DNA of 41,275 bases from a virus. How positions within the stretch are numbered: position 1 is the first letter of the stretch; each line of letters begins with the position of its first letter. The stretch is taken from IMG/VR virus record IMGVR_UViG_3300032163_000039, positions 1-41,275 of that record; one strand, given 5' to 3'. Below, one piece after another: positions 35,097 to 41,175 of the stretch. The notes below the pieces were generated by a model that searched no databases, was not told where the DNA came from, and saw only the letters and a program-made list of their open reading frames with translations. The position numbers were made by a program, and so were the translations under genes.

Positions 35097-35416
35097 CTCT
35101 TCACCTCTTCGCCTTCCCAGTTTTTCACCAGCTTCTTGATACCCACCTCATAGAGCATTTCCTTGGCCACATATTTCCTGGCCATTATGATCCTCGGCAA
35201 AATTATGACTTCTGCGAATGGGTCTCCTGCGGGGACTGTGAGCTTCGCCAGATCCAAAACTATTTTCTGAGCTCCGATTAGGCGACCGACCAGCCTCTCA
35301 AGCATCCTCTCCGTAAGGCTTTCAGGATCAACCACGACCGTTTTCTCCGGGTCCTTAACCCGAATCATGCCGCGTTTTCTGCTGGCCCCTGGCCCCTGGC
35401 CCCTGACCCCTGTCAT
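35093..35416 (-). CDS. Hypothetical protein following MuB
   Basis: A 107-aa protein. Residues 17-107 (MIRVKDPEKTVVVDPESLTE onward) form the conserved-looking part, and the first 16 residues come from a CCCCTGA/CCCCTGG simple repeat. Thus ATG at 35368 may be the ancestral start, while ATG at 35416 overlaps the MuB stop and has a nearby GAGG. The rest is helical and basic at the end. Function unknown. Confidence 0.55.
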   Translation of the reverse strand: MTGVRGQGPGASRKRGMIRVKDPEKTVVVDPESLTERMLERLVGRLIGAQKIVLDLAKLTVPAGDPFAEVIILPRIIMARKYVAKEMLYEVGIKKLVKNWEGEEVKR

Positions 35417-36156
35417 TTCCTCACCCCCCTAAAGCCCATTTTCACGGCCTGGCGCACCATCTCCACCGTCACCTGCCGGGTGCGTTTGGCATTCGCCAGG
35501 CCCACCAGGTCGATCATGCTGCGCTTGATCACCCGCCAGTCGCCGCCTCCCGGCGCCGATTGCAGGGCGACCGCCCCGTCCGGCGACACCTCCAGCCCGG
35601 CCGCCTCCCGGCCGTAGGTGATGATGTCCTTGGCACTCACCGGCGCAAAGCGCATGGTCTGAAAGACCCGGGACCAGACCCGCTTATTCTGGCTTAACAG
35701 CGCCGTCAGTTCCTCTTCGCCGATGAGCACGATGGCGGCGCCGGTGAGCTCCGCCAGGGCCCGGACCAGGTTCAGGTGCCGGGGCGTCATGTCCATCTCG
35801 TCCAGGAAGACCGGGTTGGGCTGCCCCACCAGGCGCTCCAGCGCCTCGGCGAAACAGCCGTTCTTGGTGGCCGGCGGCTGCAGCACCCCTAACTCCCGGC
35901 ACAAGGCCTGCAAAAAGCCCAGCTCACTCGTGGCCCAGATGGGCAGCATCAGGAGATGCACGCTGCCGTTATTGGCCGCCCAGGCCGCCGTGGTGCGAGA
36001 CTTGCCGTAGCCCGCCGGGCTGATGATCGCCCCCAGCCGCCCTTCGCCCGCCCCCAACTCCAGGATCTCCATCATGGCCAGGAAGTTTTCCTGGTTCTGG
36101 CAGGCGACCCGCTTGTGCTCAAACTTCGCCGGGGTCCAGCCGTCTTTTTCAGTCAT
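35413..36156 (-). CDS. Transposition target-selection ATPase (MuB-like)
   Basis: A 247-aa AAA ATPase partner of the transposase, which in Mu binds target DNA, gives target immunity and stimulates strand transfer. Walker A SPAGYGKS at 46-53, Walker B VFLDEMD at 116-122 and a sensor-like IVLIGEEEL at 142-150 are visible. The C-terminal third is basic and helical. ATG at 36156 follows an AAGGAGG site; upstream in-frame codons (HRRDACATN) are only a translated palindrome. It lies directly after the transposase, as in Mu. Confidence 0.9.
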   Translation of the reverse strand: MTEKDGWTPAKFEHKRVACQNQENFLAMMEILELGAGEGRLGAIISPAGYGKSRTTAAWAANNGSVHLLMLPIWATSELGFLQALCRELGVLQPPATKNGCFAEALERLVGQPNPVFLDEMDMTPRHLNLVRALAELTGAAIVLIGEEELTALLSQNKRVWSRVFQTMRFAPVSAKDIITYGREAAGLEVSPDGAVALQSAPGGGDWRVIKRSMIDLVGLANAKRTRQVTVEMVRQAVKMGFRGVRK

Positions 36157-36188
36157 TAAGGTCCTCCTTTGCGCCTTGGCGTTGGTGG

Positions 36189-36207
36189 CGCAGGCGTCTC
36201 GCCTGTG
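36189..36207. repeat. Dispersed palindrome between transposase and MuB genes
   Basis: CGCAGGCG-TCT-CGCCTGTG in the 55-bp spacer. Confidence 0.85.
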
Positions 36208-36211
36208 CACC

Positions 36212-38518
36212 TTAGTTATCCGCCCCCGCCTGGCAGACCATCGCCAGATCCTGCGCCTCGAACCACTCCTTCAGGGCCGCATACTCCTCGCCGTGCCGGA
36301 AGTAGTAGGCGAATTGCCGGTCATCGGGCTCCAACTCCCCGCCCCGGGCCTGGTGCGCCAGCAGCGCCAGGTACCGCCGGCAGTCCGGCCGCGCCTTCAG
36401 CTCCTCCAGGCACTCCTCCTCCACCCTCATCCGCCGGGAGGCGGCCGCGGCGTCGGCTTCGATCTGCCGCTTCTCGGCTTCGGTCAAGGGCAGTGGCACG
36501 GGCTTTCCAGCCTGTGGGGCCGGCTGCCCATCCGCGCTCAACCCCAGCCGGGCGAAGTGCGCCTCCGTCTCCGGCTGCACCAGCGTCTCGCTCAACATCC
36601 GGCAGAAGACCGAGGCCTCCTTCTCCTGGTGCTTTTTCAGTTCGATCTGCGTCTTAAATTCTGCCTGGTGCGCCGCCGTGCCGGTGATCCTGGCGATGGG
36701 ATGCACCTTGGTCATCACCCGGGCCTCACACAGATAAGTCCCGTCCTCCTCAAAGACCTGGATGGCGTCCGGGTCCAGCAGGTCGTAGCGGATCATGACC
36801 GGGTGCCGCCGCCCGTAAAGCTCCGGGGCGTAGTAATCCCGGCCCAGGTGGGTGATGCCCCGGCGGTGGATGGTGCGCACCGTCTGGCTCAGCATCAGGA
36901 AGCGCAAATCCGCCGGCTCGATCCCCGGCCCCCGGCCCGCCATAAACACCTCCAGGGGCGATTTGCCCTTCAGGTGCCCCCGCGGTTGCGGCCGCGGGTT
37001 GTATTTCTCGTCCAGCCAGGCGGCCAGACCCCGGTGCGTCTGGAGCAAGGTGGGCACGGCCCCCCGGGTCAGCCGCTCCCACATGCGCCGGTGCTCCTTC
37101 TCGCCCCGGCTACGGTACGGGGGCTTCTCGTCGATGCCGCCGCCGGTATAGGTGGGGGCGTGCTTCTCGAATTCCTTCAGGGTCAGGTGAAATCGTTCCA
37201 CCGTCTTGCTCTGGCCGTGGTAGGGCCAGGCGAAGATGGTTTCGATCCCCAGCCGCTTGAACAGGCCGCCCAGGCCCGACTGCTCCAGGTTCCCGGTGAA
37301 ATACTTGGCCCCGAAGGCCTTGCCGTTGTCGATATAGATGCACAGCGGCAGTTTCCCCAGGGTGAGAATCGCCCGCCACAGGGCCGCGGCGATGGACCGG
37401 GTATCTTCCGTGGGCATGATCTCCCAGCCCACCGGGAAGTTCGACTTCATGTCCATGAAGGTGATCAGGGTGAGGCGTTTGGGCTTGCCGGTGTAGGGAT
37501 TGACGGACTCGAAATTGATGGTGTGGCCGTCCGCCACCAGGCAGTCGCCCACCTCCAAGAGGTCGTAATCCCGTTCGATGTGGTAGGCGCACTGATCATT
37601 CCAGGCCTGTTTGCCTTTCCGGCTGTAGATCCAGATATGGTTTTTGCGGGCCTCGAAATCATCCAGGAAGCGCTTGTAGGTGGCGTCCGACTCGTCGTCC
37701 GGCAGGCCGCGCAACCGCATGGCGTCACGGGCATTGCTGATGACCTGCGCCTTGTTGTAGCAGTTGGGAGAGAGGGCCCAGGCCAGCAGGATCTTCCCCT
37801 GGGGCATGCGCATCAGGTCCTCTAACTTCCCTTCCCGCCCCCCGATGCGGCGCCGGCCCCGCAGATGGTCGCCGTGTTTCGGGGCCAGGGCCTTCAGTAG
37901 GTCCGTGGCGCCGGCGTTGGTGGGGCGGGCGTCCCCGCCCGCCCTCCTTGCCCGCACCGCCCAGCGCTCCGCGGTCTTGTAGGTCACCGGCCCCAGGACG
38001 TCGTAGAGCCTATGATAGGGGCCGTTGGCCCCGGAATTGTAAGCCTCAATGAAGGCCAGTTTGGCGGGCAGGACCGCCCCCCAGCCCTTGGCCCGCCCCG
38101 CCTGGTCCAGGTAAAGCCTGAGCAGGTCCGCCCGGGCCAGGGCCAGGCGCTCCTGCCAGGGCGGCAAGGTCTTCGGGGTGGAGGCGTCCAGTGGCACAGG
38201 CGTCTCGCCTGTGGACCTTATCATCCCTCTCCCCTCGCGGGAGAGGGCTGGGGTGAGGGGGGTTTCTCTGACCCCTGACCCCTGACCCCTGGCCACTGCC
38301 CTCCCATCCTCCAGCAGCCGCCCCAGCTCCCAGGCCTCCGCTTTGCCCCGCACCTCCTTGGGCAGCCCGGCCCCCAGGTATTCCTTTTTTATTCCCCCGC
38401 CCCTGCCGTTGGGCCGTTCCCGGCAGGGCCACTGCTCCTTGTCCGCCCGTCTGCGTGCGGATCTTTCAGTAATCCCCAGGGCCTCCGCTAATTCTTTGGC
38501 CAACCATACCTCTGTCAT
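36212..38518 (-). CDS. DDE transposase (MuA-like)
   Basis: A 768-aa transposase that would bind the end sites, nick the tips and join them to target DNA. The N-terminal Mu DNA-binding unit (VWLAKELAEALGITERSARR) covers about 1-55. The integrase-type core has DDE residues D330 (CLVADGHT), D397 (YIDNGKAFG) and E441 (SKTVERFH), followed by a MuA-type C-terminal region (HLKGKSPLEVF). Residues about 75-118 and other spots are encoded by repeats: TGETPVPL, AGGDARPT and QAGKPVP come from three palindromes, and TPLTPALSREGRG from another hairpin. All catalytic residues remain, so the enzyme is probably active. ATG at 38518 overlaps the upstream stop (ATGA). Confidence 0.95.
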   Translation of the reverse strand: MTEVWLAKELAEALGITERSARRRADKEQWPCRERPNGRGGGIKKEYLGAGLPKEVRGKAEAWELGRLLEDGRAVARGQGSGVRETPLTPALSREGRGMIRSTGETPVPLDASTPKTLPPWQERLALARADLLRLYLDQAGRAKGWGAVLPAKLAFIEAYNSGANGPYHRLYDVLGPVTYKTAERWAVRARRAGGDARPTNAGATDLLKALAPKHGDHLRGRRRIGGREGKLEDLMRMPQGKILLAWALSPNCYNKAQVISNARDAMRLRGLPDDESDATYKRFLDDFEARKNHIWIYSRKGKQAWNDQCAYHIERDYDLLEVGDCLVADGHTINFESVNPYTGKPKRLTLITFMDMKSNFPVGWEIMPTEDTRSIAAALWRAILTLGKLPLCIYIDNGKAFGAKYFTGNLEQSGLGGLFKRLGIETIFAWPYHGQSKTVERFHLTLKEFEKHAPTYTGGGIDEKPPYRSRGEKEHRRMWERLTRGAVPTLLQTHRGLAAWLDEKYNPRPQPRGHLKGKSPLEVFMAGRGPGIEPADLRFLMLSQTVRTIHRRGITHLGRDYYAPELYGRRHPVMIRYDLLDPDAIQVFEEDGTYLCEARVMTKVHPIARITGTAAHQAEFKTQIELKKHQEKEASVFCRMLSETLVQPETEAHFARLGLSADGQPAPQAGKPVPLPLTEAEKRQIEADAAAASRRMRVEEECLEELKARPDCRRYLALLAHQARGGELEPDDRQFAYYFRHGEEYAALKEWFEAQDLAMVCQAGADN
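36497..36516. repeat. Dispersed palindrome in transposase gene (C-terminal copy)
   Basis: CACGGGCT-TTCC-AGCCTGTG, read as QAGKPVP. Confidence 0.8.
37924..37943. repeat. Dispersed palindrome in transposase gene (middle copy)
   Basis: GGCGGGCG-TCCC-CGCCCGCC, read as AGGDARPT. Confidence 0.85.
38195..38298. repeat. Cluster of three repeat types in the transposase linker
   Basis: A palindrome CACAGGCG-TCT-CGCCTGTG (38195-38213), a hairpin CCCTCTCCC-CTCGC-GGGAGAGGG (38225-38247) and a run of CTGACCC-type units (about 38267-38298) follow each other and are all translated. Confidence 0.8.
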
Positions 38519-38982
38519 TTTTCCAAGTTCCATAATTCCAGCAGTTGCTGCCGTTTTCTGATCTCCCGGTTAAGCTGGCGGGCCTCCTCTTGTAACCGGT
38601 GAATCTCGCTCCGCAGCGCCTCCGGCTCCTGAAAGGCGTGCAGCCGCCGCTTGCGGTTCAGCACCAGCAGGGGGCCATCGTCCCCCGCAGCATCACAGAA
38701 GGCCGGCAGGTATTCCGCCGGAACATGCCGGTCGGCCTTCGACTCCGCCGTCCAGGAATCAATCATCTCTTTGGTGATTTGGGTGTTGAGCAGGTGGGAC
38801 ATCTGCCCCGCCACCTGGTGGCGGGAAAGTGGGCAGCGCTTCAAGGCCTGGTTCATGGCTGTCTTCAAATCATCCAGGCAATGCATGGAACCGGGGCGGT
38901 CCTTTTCTTCCTCCCGGCCCCGGGTCATGGCCTCGAAGATGTTTGGTTGCCGGGCGTCTATTCTTTTTTTAAGATTAGACAT
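38515..38982 (-). CDS. Possible early regulatory protein
   Basis: A 155-aa protein between the Ner-like gene and the transposase. ATG at 38982 has AGGTG upstream and is preferred to GTG at 38988. The middle (CPLSRHQVAGQMSHLLNTQI, then KADRHVPAEYLPAFCDAAG) looks like a helical DNA-binding domain of the phage CII/CP76 style. The end is a coiled coil (EIHRLQEEARQLNREIRKRQ). In this position it could modulate early transcription or transposase action. Family assignment is weak. Confidence 0.5.
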   Translation of the reverse strand: MSNLKKRIDARQPNIFEAMTRGREEEKDRPGSMHCLDDLKTAMNQALKRCPLSRHQVAGQMSHLLNTQITKEMIDSWTAESKADRHVPAEYLPAFCDAAGDDGPLLVLNRKRRLHAFQEPEALRSEIHRLQEEARQLNREIRKRQQLLELWNLEK

Positions 38983-39004: not shown

Positions 39005-39241
39005 TTAAGATGCTGTGCAGGATTTGGGGCGGCCCCGGCCCCGGTTGCCTTGCAATTCCGGGAACACCGTCAGCGCGTCCAGGTCCAGGATCTCGGCAAT
39101 GGCCTCCATGATCCGGCGGCTCACCAGTTGGTGCTTCACCACCAGGGACACGGCGTTGACCGTCACCTCCATATCCCGGGCGATGGCCCGCATGGACCGG
39201 CCCTTGCGCAGTAGTTCGACCTTGATGTCGATGGTTTTCAT
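39005..39241 (-). CDS. Ner-like small HTH repressor
   Basis: A 78-aa protein, first gene of the leftward operon. RKGRSMRAIARDMEVTVNAV and the following ISLVVKHQ-like helix give a helix-turn-helix as in Mu Ner and other Cro-like regulators, which damp early and repressor promoters after induction. The basic tail ends RGRPKSC. CGGAG precedes the ATG. Two AACC-N4-GGTT inverted repeats over its own promoter are likely operators. Confidence 0.75.
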   Translation of the reverse strand: MKTIDIKVELLRKGRSMRAIARDMEVTVNAVSLVVKHQLVSRRIMEAIAEILDLDALTVFPELQGNRGRGRPKSCTAS

Positions 39242-39335: not shown

Positions 39336-39467
39336 TGTCCGGGCAGCTTTTTTGACCCTTTTTTGAGCATCACTTATTTTCTTAATTATATTTAATGCTT
39401 ACCTATGTCCGGGCAGCCATTGACATGTGCGCGCAAATGTCCGGGCAGGTCTGGTCCTGCTCGGACA
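39336..39467. promoter_or_regulatory. Four TGTCCGGGCAG operators
   Basis: Three direct copies at 39336-39346, 39406-39416 and 39438-39448, plus one inverted copy with a single change at 39457-39467 (CTGCTCGGACA). They flank and follow the rightward promoter, upstream of the repressor start, and fit autoregulation by the XRE repressor. Confidence 0.75.
39352..39380 (+). promoter_or_regulatory. Rightward repressor promoter
   Basis: TTGACC, 17-base spacer, TATTTT. One operator lies just upstream and three lie between it and the preferred repressor start. Confidence 0.6.
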
Positions 39468-39493
39468 TGGCTCTGGCCCAAAAATCTCATTCT

Positions 39494-39922
39494 ATGAGCA
39501 AATTTCAGGACCGCTTGCGCCAGGTTCGGGGCAAATTAACCCAGGAGGAGATATCCAACCAATTGGATATCCATTCTATTACTTATGGGAGGTATGAACG
39601 CGGGGAAAGGTCGCCTGGTGTTGAATTTGTCGAGAAGGTCTGCCGGGCCTTTAACATCAGCCCCACTTGGCTGATCCTGGGCGAAGGCCCCATGCGCCTG
39701 GACGAGGCCGCCGTTCCCGCCCCCGCCCCGGCCGCGCCCTTGAACCAGGAACTCCTGCGCCAGGTCCTGGCCGGGGTCAAGAAGGGCCTTGCCTTAAAGC
39801 GCCTGGTCCTGTCTCCCGATAAGGAAGCTGAACTGGTGGCCCTGCTTTATGATCACTACGCCAAGACCGGGGAATCTCCGGCAGAGCAAACCGTGGAGAG
39901 ATATCTTAGATTAGTCGCTTAG
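39494..39922 (+). CDS. XRE-family prophage repressor
   Basis: A 142-aa regulator whose HTH covers about residues 5-60 (KLTQEEISNQLDIHSITYGR, then FVEKVCRAFNISPTWLI). The C-terminal third is helical, without an S24 peptidase, so induction by RecA-driven self-cleavage is not expected. It probably keeps the leftward operon silent. The ATG at 39494 puts the HTH right at the N-terminus; ATG codons at 39467 and 39395 are also in frame but would place operators inside the gene. None has a good ribosome site. A transposase-site-like sequence overlaps the start. Confidence 0.85.
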   Translation: MSKFQDRLRQVRGKLTQEEISNQLDIHSITYGRYERGERSPGVEFVEKVCRAFNISPTWLILGEGPMRLDEAAVPAPAPAAPLNQELLRQVLAGVKKGLALKRLVLSPDKEAELVALLYDHYAKTGESPAEQTVERYLRLVA

Positions 39923-39930
39923 GAGGGAAT

Positions 39931-40179
39931 ATGTCCAAGCATGCCGATTTGCAAGAGGAAGTGGCCAAAATTGTCGCCTTCGCCCGGTCTTGTGACCCGG
40001 CCCCCGATAAACCCATGACCATTAATGGCAACCACAACATCCAGGTGGCGGGCGGCGGGGAGCGGCCCATGACTATCACCGGTCACCGCAACCTGCAAAT
40101 CAACGGCCCGGCCTCCATCCTGCGCCGTTTTTTCAAAATATTTCGCCCCCCAAGGGAGAATCATCATGAGCCTAAGTGA
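39931..40179 (+). CDS. Small protein with two INGNxNIQVAG-type motifs
   Basis: An 82-aa protein directly after the repressor, with an AGGAGGGAAT site. A helical N-terminus (MSKHADLQEEVAKIVAFARS) is followed by two copies of a strand motif, TINGNHNIQVAGGG and TITGHRNLQINGPA, and a basic tail (RRFFKIFRPPREN). A third version of this motif is found in the last gene of the cluster. Such repeated G/N-rich strands may form a small beta-helix or oligomerisation unit. The function is unknown; expression with the repressor in lysogens is likely. Confidence 0.65.
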   Translation: MSKHADLQEEVAKIVAFARSCDPAPDKPMTINGNHNIQVAGGGERPMTITGHRNLQINGPASILRRFFKIFRPPRENHHEPK

Positions 40180-40678
40180 CCGCCGCCTGGGTTACGCGGT
40201 TTTGGCCGCATCCTTCCTGGTCTTGTTGTTCCTTGGTTTGGTGGGCTCGCTTTTCTGGGAAGGCCAAAAGAGCCAGCAGATTGCCCCTCCATCGCCGTCT
40301 GCCTCACCGACCAAAGAGACGCCTTCGGCCCCCAAAACCATCCCTCCCCCTTTGGCCGCCTTTCTTAAACAACACCCTGATGAGCTGCAAGCCGCTGCTC
40401 GCGCCGTCGAGAAATGGCAAAAAGCCGGCCTGGTCGATTACTGGATCAGCCCCGATGGTATGTCCGCCCTTGTCCATGTGGAGCCCAAGTGCTGGTACCC
40501 CCTGCTCCATAAAGACAAAGAGACCTTCGTTCAGATTTTTCTTGTCTTTTTCCTTGGCTATAACCTTGACCATCCCGGACCCGGCGAAGTTCCGTTCTTC
40601 TCTGTTTTGAATATGTCCACCCGGGAACGCCTTGCCCGCGCCTATCTGAATTCCGGCGAGATTGAGATCTTTAAGTGA
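40166..40678 (+). CDS. Membrane-anchored lysogeny-cluster protein
   Basis: A 170-aa protein overlapping the previous gene by 14 bp, with a GGGAG site. One N-terminal membrane helix (YAVLAASFLVLLFLGLVGSL) is followed by a Pro/Ser-rich linker and a folded part of about 100 residues (HPDELQAAARAVEKWQKAGL, then VHVEPKCWYPLLHKDKETF). It is probably made in the lysogen and faces the periplasm or cytoplasm from the inner membrane. Superinfection exclusion or host modification are possible roles. Family not recognised. Confidence 0.65.
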   Translation: MSLSDRRLGYAVLAASFLVLLFLGLVGSLFWEGQKSQQIAPPSPSASPTKETPSAPKTIPPPLAAFLKQHPDELQAAARAVEKWQKAGLVDYWISPDGMSALVHVEPKCWYPLLHKDKETFVQIFLVFFLGYNLDHPGPGEVPFFSVLNMSTRERLARAYLNSGEIEIFK

Positions 40679-40710
40679 ATTCTGATCTTGGGGGCCTTAA
40701 GGAAAAACGA

Positions 40711-40735
40711 GGGTGAAAATTAGGATTTTCCCAAT
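40711..40735 (+). terminator. Possible terminator after the repressor operon
   Basis: GAAAAT-TAGG-ATTTTC hairpin, followed by CCCAATTTACATTTTATT. The stem is AT-rich and weak. Confidence 0.35.
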
Positions 40736-40761
40736 TTACATTTTATTGCACCGCTTATACG

Positions 40762-41175
40762 GTGGCAGTAACAAGCACAAAAAGGGGACAAGGGGTGCAG
40801 ACCATCAATGGGGACCAGAATATCCAGGTGGCCGGTGACCTGATTGTTGTTCAGTCGTCTCCGAAGCTTTCCAAATCTCTTATTTTCGGCATGTTCTTAC
40901 CTCCCCTGAACAGCATTGCCATCCTTCTGTTAATCACTTTTGAAAGCTTCTCGCCAGGGGATTTTCCAACCCTATCCTCGTCTCATCGCCCCGAACTTTA
41001 TCTCATTCTATGTGCATCTTTCAGCCAGTTCCTGTCGATTTATCTCATTTTACGCCTCATGCCCTTTTCCCCTTGTGTACCTCGTCAAGACCTTGAAAAT
41101 GCCGCAAAAGTTCCCCTTTCGTCTCTACGCATCCCCATGAACTCTATATCTCATTCTATGTGCCCCCCCACATGA
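40762..41175 (+). CDS. Possible membrane protein running into the right prophage end
   Basis: A 137-aa frame with GTG start. It begins with the third INGDQNIQVAGD motif and has hydrophobic segments (FLPPLNSIAILLLITF and YLILCASFSQFLSIYLILRL). The frame passes through all three right-end transposase sites, and its stop codon TGA is the first three bases of the target duplication, outside the element. The N-terminal 60 residues look real; the remainder may be translated non-coding end DNA or a gene that uses the end as code. No good ribosome site. Confidence 0.4.
   Translation: MAVTSTKRGQGVQTINGDQNIQVAGDLIVVQSSPKLSKSLIFGMFLPPLNSIAILLLITFESFSPGDFPTLSSSHRPELYLILCASFSQFLSIYLILRLMPFSPCVPRQDLENAAKVPLSSLRIPMNSISHSMCPPT
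40999..41172 (+). promoter_or_regulatory. attR: Right prophage end with three transposase-binding-like repeats
   Basis: TATCTCATTCTATGTGC at 40999-41015, TATCTCATTTTACGCCT at 41041-41057 and TATCTCATTCTATGTGC at 41147-41163. They are inverted relative to the left-end copies. Three right sites against two clear left ones, with unequal spacing, resembles Mu, where end asymmetry helps the transposase order its subunits. Confidence 0.85.

Follow-up and report, generated by a model that had tools for sequence, protein, structure and literature searches.

A short G/N-rich motif shared by neighboring proteins of phage repressor operons as a candidate docking tag

Short G/N/Q/V/I-rich motifs occur in the products of neighboring genes in bacterial amyloid signaling (BASS) systems, in the fungal HET-s/sigma/PP systems, and in animal RHIM, where the motif lies at opposite termini of two proteins and is subtype-matched within a locus. 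In BASS, the two proteins are an NLR receptor and a Bell effector. Phage lambda encodes a soluble and a membrane protein, RexA and RexB, after its repressor, and the Gregale-type repressor of Casadabanvirus (phrog_17822) has an HTH fused to an ORF6C domain, a domain otherwise typical of anti-repressors. A motif resembling the one reported here is also present in T4 gp5-like baseplate spikes (Pfam Gp5_C), whose beta-helices are long repeats with IKGDWNIQVGG-like rungs. We describe a phage locus in which a motif of this type, GNxNIQVxG, is carried by two small proteins encoded after the repressor, and we compare it with repressor operons of phages from several bacterial phyla in which neighboring genes share such a motif.

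The window, that is, the whole stretch of DNA analyzed, is a viral record of 41,275 bases with the gene content of a Mu-like phage. The features that frame the locus are the following.

35413-36210: MuB-type ATPase
36212-38533: transposase (MuA; phrog_310, 7e-93)
39005..39241, minus strand: Ner-like HTH regulator (Pfam HTH_35, 4e-6; phrog_769 repressor), divergent from the repressor gene
39336..39449, no strand assigned: three TGTCCGGGCAG repeats (repeat search, family D5)
39494..39922, plus strand: CI-type HTH repressor, 142 aa (Pfam HTH_3, 1.3e-11)
41000..41163, plus strand: two ATCTCATTCTATGTGC repeats (at 41000 and 41148), with further copies at 39484 (plus strand) and at 109 and 131 (minus strand)

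We set the repressor start at 39494, which is probably correct because the repressor of a related phage, L043, aligns from there (75% identity over 72 aa, common start). The repressor tail (..YLRLVA) lacks the motif. The TGTCCGGGCAG repeats, located in the gap between the two divergent regulator genes, are possible operators. Sites of the ATCTCATTCTATGWGC type (109-146, 39484-39499, 41000-41015, and 41148-41163) are inverted between the record ends; five matches were found against 0.82 expected, a number reached in 0/100 shuffles, and the one internal copy, at 39484, sits at the repressor start. These repeats are probably transposase end-binding sites, so the record would be close to a whole phage genome, and since ORF3 (below) overlaps repeats with inverted copies at the opposite record end, this gene would lie at the left end of the phage. 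The cluster fills the slot between the repressor and that end. Relatives found through their transposase (L003-L005) have different genes after the repressor, all without the motif, so this slot is variable.

The genes and motif copies of the cluster are as follows.

39931..40179, plus strand: ORF1, 82 aa, with a predicted helix at the N terminus followed by two motif copies and a short basic tail
40018..40053, plus strand: motif copy 1, TINGNHNIQVAG, in ORF1 (29.9 bits)
40072..40107, plus strand: motif copy 2, TITGHRNLQING, in ORF1 (weak, 12.9 bits)
40166..40678, plus strand: ORF2, 170 aa, with one TM helix (40199-40255; hydropathy 2.57), a Pro-rich linker, and a C-terminal domain
40795..41175, plus strand: ORF3, 126 aa, with an N-terminal motif and two predicted TM segments (40879-40935 and 40996-41052)
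40801..40836, plus strand: motif copy 3, TINGDQNIQVAG, in ORF3 (31.6 bits)

The initial annotation had described three co-directional genes after the repressor (39931-41175), a motif present twice in the first and once in the last, and a membrane-anchored middle product. All of this was confirmed, but the membrane prediction for ORF3 had been overlooked. A motif profile derived from other phages, with no copy taken from the window, set ORF3 and ORF1 apart among the 312 window ORFs (31.6 and 29.9 bits; next best, 11.1 bits), and the second copy in ORF1 is convincing only since the first precedes it. A strict DNA pattern for the motif matched the window exactly twice, with 0.00 matches expected from shuffles. 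The two strong copies use different codons at 5/10 conserved residues, indicating that conservation acts on the protein sequence. Plain gapped local alignment of ORF1 with ORF3 gave a score of 51, barely above the scores of up to 49 obtained with unrelated ORFs, so the case within the window rests on the motif profile and not on overall similarity. The two tagged genes are not adjacent, as ORF2 lies between them.

The ATG of ORF2 overlaps the 3′ end of ORF1, and its C-terminal domain is related to a Zn-ribbon TM protein of L085 (E 2e-7). Zinc-ribbon TM proteins are encoded at 1468-2211 in L085 and at 326-874 in L005, in the latter after the repressor. ORF3 probably starts at the GTG at 40795, not at 40762; an AGGGG sequence (40783-40787) precedes this GTG, and with this start the protein begins MQTINGDQNIQVAGDL, which puts the motif at its very N terminus. 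The second TM segment of ORF3 is encoded over the end repeat (41000 and 41148) and may be a by-product of it. A single-sequence model of ORF1 placed a helix at residues 4-20 and strands at 29-41 and 44-57; its confidence was too low, and it was dropped as fold evidence. Expression of the cluster in the lysogen is suggested by gene position and by RNA-seq of the B3-like phage Fc02, in which lysogens transcribe the gene that follows repc (PMC9936078).

No family in PADLOC, NCBIfam, Pfam, or PHROG was found for ORF1, ORF2, or ORF3, nor were direct homologues in scans of viral, phage, and plasmid collections, the sole tblastn match (L002) being spurious. Counterparts were seen instead in L043, a kin phage from the Deltaproteobacteria, whose MuA is 63% identical to that of the window phage over 767 aa. 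In L043, the repressor is followed by a gene (1245-1523) for what we read from its sequence as a BamE-like exported protein, then by genes for a 211-aa protein with the motif QTAIGNGNIQVGGD and an ORF6C-like domain and for a 103-aa protein (254-565) with QTAIGNQNIQVGRD and one TM segment. We interpret the 211-aa and 103-aa proteins as the counterparts of ORF1 and ORF3, respectively. A helix-plus-motif profile drawn from five motif-ORF6C proteins found ORF1 alone among the 312 window ORFs (E 3.3e-5), which identifies ORF1 as a motif-ORF6C protein reduced to its N-terminal half; the ORF6C domain was absent from both ORF1 and ORF3 in Pfam and PHROG searches. A motif-pattern search of 395 genomes from the phylum of L043 gave six matches, of which two form the adjacent pair in L043 and four were discarded as chance hits.

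Searches with the motif profile, which the initial annotation had suggested as a way to other carriers, located them in several bacterial phyla, and the motif-bearing genes proved to be conserved beyond this prophage, as pairs in L043 and in at least 10 other phage types in which the repressor tail and the N terminus of the next gene product share the motif. A strict motif scan of viral contigs gave no match, and a looser scan of IMG/VR contigs returned mostly baseplate spike proteins, which were put aside as another context. In two IMG/VR contigs (L010 and L020), the C terminus of an HTH repressor carries the motif and the next gene starts with the same motif; L030 is arranged similarly, and a genome scan added L038 (Riemerella) and L041 (Bacteroidales) as well as L043. 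The phage types include Pseudomonas B3, Burkholderia KS10, and a group of E. coli P2-like prophages; in these cultured phages and prophages, and likewise in L064, the two-gene arrangement comes with other spellings of the motif. In B3, the repressor contains ..SVTGDGNRTAGRDFHE.. and ORF20 has IEVTGSNNIVAGRDFIE and two TM segments. In the E. coli P2-like prophage, whose repressor is present in 510/5426 complete E. coli genomes, the repressor carries LNISGGNNRIAGRDYNE, and the next gene encodes VNSNGSNNRVAGRDFHE followed by an ORF6C/Flk-like domain and a tail anchor. KS5, Carl1, and AP3 spell the motif FxGxxxGQxVTGDV and FxGxxGQVAGGDV. Most partners contain an ORF6C-like domain, are anchored in the membrane, or combine the two features, with TM helices predicted in B3, Ps59, KS5, Carl1, AP3, and the E. 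coli prophage. Motif-ORF6C proteins were rare in genome searches (1/247, 5/299, 3/350, and 2/245 genomes).

Some further features of these loci were recorded. In the partner protein of the E. coli prophage (L077 3421-4071), the ORF6C-like domain is a relative of Flk, a flagellar regulator of the host (NCBIfam PRK10715; E 8e-16 to the Flk model). Flk is tail-anchored, and its kinship with phage regulators is possible. In the deposited genome of E. coli phage 520873 (L071 2927-3539), a frameshift breaks the partner gene, which is intact in E. coli strain 10671 and others. A small gene for an exported protein or lipoprotein recurs near the repressor-partner pair, in families that differ (DUF4468, DUF2511, and BamE-like); it was seen as a third gene in L010, KS10, B3, Ps59, the E. 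coli prophage, and L043, with the following positions.

L010 384-872, L047 4015-4623, L067 3580-3966, and L077 4101-4448: exported/lipoprotein gene
L043 1245-1523, L068 3521-4021, and L069 2818-3315: exported/lipoprotein gene

We then compared tails and partners across phages. When the repressor tail of each of ten phage types was aligned with its own next gene, the local scores added up to 509, compared with an average of 338 in permutations (P 2e-5). By our own arithmetic, ten pairs would sort by chance into subtypes of 5, 2, 1, 1, and 1 with a probability of 7e-5, which places the matching signal at the subtype level; within the NIQVGG subtype, own pairs did not score consistently above foreign pairs. 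Among all ORFs, the best partner of the repressor tail was the next gene in 12/12 loci. Within the B3-like phages, the tail motif and the motif gene are both present in B3 and Ps59 and both missing from JBD25 and Ps60, and ORF20-type genes are confined to B3 and Ps59. The paired motifs use different codons at 32/73 conserved residues, so a DNA-level repeat or operator was rejected as the cause of their similarity; such codon turnover suggests that both copies are under constraint and does not speak for contact. There are two exceptions, L048, with a motif gene and a repressor tail without the motif, and Komp_PAO1_1, with a motif-like stretch in the tail and a neighbor without it. Subtype matching could partly stem from an old duplication whose two genes were then inherited together as a cassette.

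The partner domain was identified as ORF6C from weak Pfam matches, PHROG matches, and one fold match. Among the Pfam matches, one exceeded the curated cut-off (Gregale, 25.9 bits versus 22). In PHROG, the domain matched phrog_17822 and anti-repressor families (6e-35 for L043), and a BFVD fold search with the L043 protein gave an ORF6C protein as top match (E 1e-5, probability 1.0); a PDB fold search with the motif-ORF6C model gave nothing significant. Two proteins, the "CI-like repressor" of phage Gregale and one of L082, combine an HTH and an ORF6C-like domain in a single chain. The motif in their linkers is degenerate, as would be expected of a tag that takes the place of a covalent link. 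Since ORF6C is typical of anti-repressors, these matches point to repressor control at least as much as to an anti-phage role.

Taken as a whole, the comparisons lead us to propose, at a probability of roughly 55%, that a homotypic beta-strand docking tag joins the proteins of phage lysogeny operons and, in the window, ORF1 to ORF3. The GNxNIQVxG element would be a short beta-strand tag that pairs with a same-subtype copy on the protein encoded next door. In most phages, the tag would be borne by the C-terminal tail of the repressor and by the N terminus of the next product, an ORF6C and/or membrane-anchored protein. In the window, where the repressor is untagged, it would link a partner stripped of the ORF6C domain (ORF1) to a membrane hairpin protein (ORF3), and such pairing would put ORF1 at the membrane. 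The assemblies would serve mainly in controlling or exploiting the state of the repressor, for example, by membrane tethering or sensing. The suggestion in the initial annotation that the shared motif reflects assembly of the proteins thus gains support from pairing, subtype matching, and best-partner ranking; from these we infer that the proteins would touch through the tag in a cross-beta structure, assemble at the membrane, and act on the repressor.

Other readings were weighed against this one. The initial annotation had suggested an anti-phage system. This is not supported, as ORF1-3 have no PADLOC, NCBIfam, Pfam, or PHROG family, but such activity of the cluster is possible. Its most concrete form would be Rex-like superinfection exclusion or abortive infection, in which a tagged soluble sensor triggers a tagged membrane protein with an exported accessory. 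The position downstream of the repressor, the membrane proteins, and the recurrent third exported/lipoprotein gene fit this scheme, as do the filing of phrog_6521 as a moron membrane protein and the exclusion genes that B3-like phages carry around their repressor (PMC9936078). With 0/5027 PADLOC models matching and the ORF6C domain indicating repressor control, however, we consider it rather unlikely. A stronger form of the docking-tag proposal is amyloid signaling proper, with a prion-like cross-beta tag templating a switch in the membrane partner, as in HET-s or BASS. Adjacent genes sharing a short G/N/Q/V/I motif follow the same logic (compare PMC8086366), and the low-confidence prediction of strand-turn-strand in ORF1 agrees with it, but an NLR or Bell partner is lacking, and this form appears unlikely. 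Similarly unlikely is the further reading that temperate phages of several bacterial phyla connect their repressor with a membrane partner through subtype-matched, prion-like cross-beta tags, as an amyloid-signaling-type circuit in the lysis-lysogeny switch.

Related sequences in predicted beta-helical baseplate spikes, and a weak Pfam Gp5_C match of L030 (E 0.012), would suit a tag that is a homo-oligomerization element only, a short beta-helix or hairpin through which each protein multimerizes with itself and no hetero-assembly occurs. Subtype matching between neighbors is not expected in that case, nor is one subtype common to 2/3 window proteins, and we think it quite unlikely. Finally, ORF3 might not be a real gene and its motif copy a remnant, given its overlap with the phage-end repeats and a 3′ half in which coding bias is weak (G+C at third positions, 0.44). 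Retention of the motif despite codon changes, a plausible ribosome site, and a motif-TM gene in the equivalent position of L043 make this very unlikely.

If the docking-tag proposal is correct, phage repressors would be parts of tagged assemblies reaching the membrane instead of lone DNA-binding proteins, temperate phages would have a means of detecting membrane events or another phage, and a function could be assigned to many of the "hypothetical" genes next to repressors. Our searches, which covered part of the literature, found no description of a paired tag on phage repressors and their neighbors, and such assembly of lysogeny proteins, often at the cell membrane, would be common but apparently undescribed. 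The presence of the pairing in Pseudomonas B3 and in the E. coli P2-like prophage makes the proposal testable at once in laboratory strains.

Among the known systems, gp5-like spikes resemble the tag in their rungs and differ in architecture, since the tag occurs in one or two copies in small regulators with no virion gene context. The locus resembles lambda rexAB in its operon position after the repressor, its membrane component, and expected expression in the lysogen; no sequence relation to the window proteins was found, and ORF1-3 gave no significant Pfam, PHROG, or PADLOC match to RexA/RexB or other catalogued defense proteins. RexA and RexB are not known to have a motif in common. The domain of the Gregale-type repressor is common to the partners in L043, L048, L041, L038, and L030, whereas ORF1 has the N-terminal helix and G/N motif of these motif-ORF6C partners and no ORF6C domain. 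The locus also resembles BASS, in that the same motif occurs in two adjacent gene products (the L043 pair and the repressor and next gene in 10 phage types). Searches of Pfam, NCBIfam, and PADLOC detected no NLR-type NTPase in ORF1-3 or the partners, and the phage pairs consist of a repressor and an ORF6C or membrane protein in place of receptor and effector; judged from their sequences, they are BASS-like in logic (PMC8086366, PMC12261475) and are not classed as BASS because of this composition. If the proposal holds, they would add a phage-regulation branch to paired-motif signaling, which the papers we found describe for immune receptors and their effectors.
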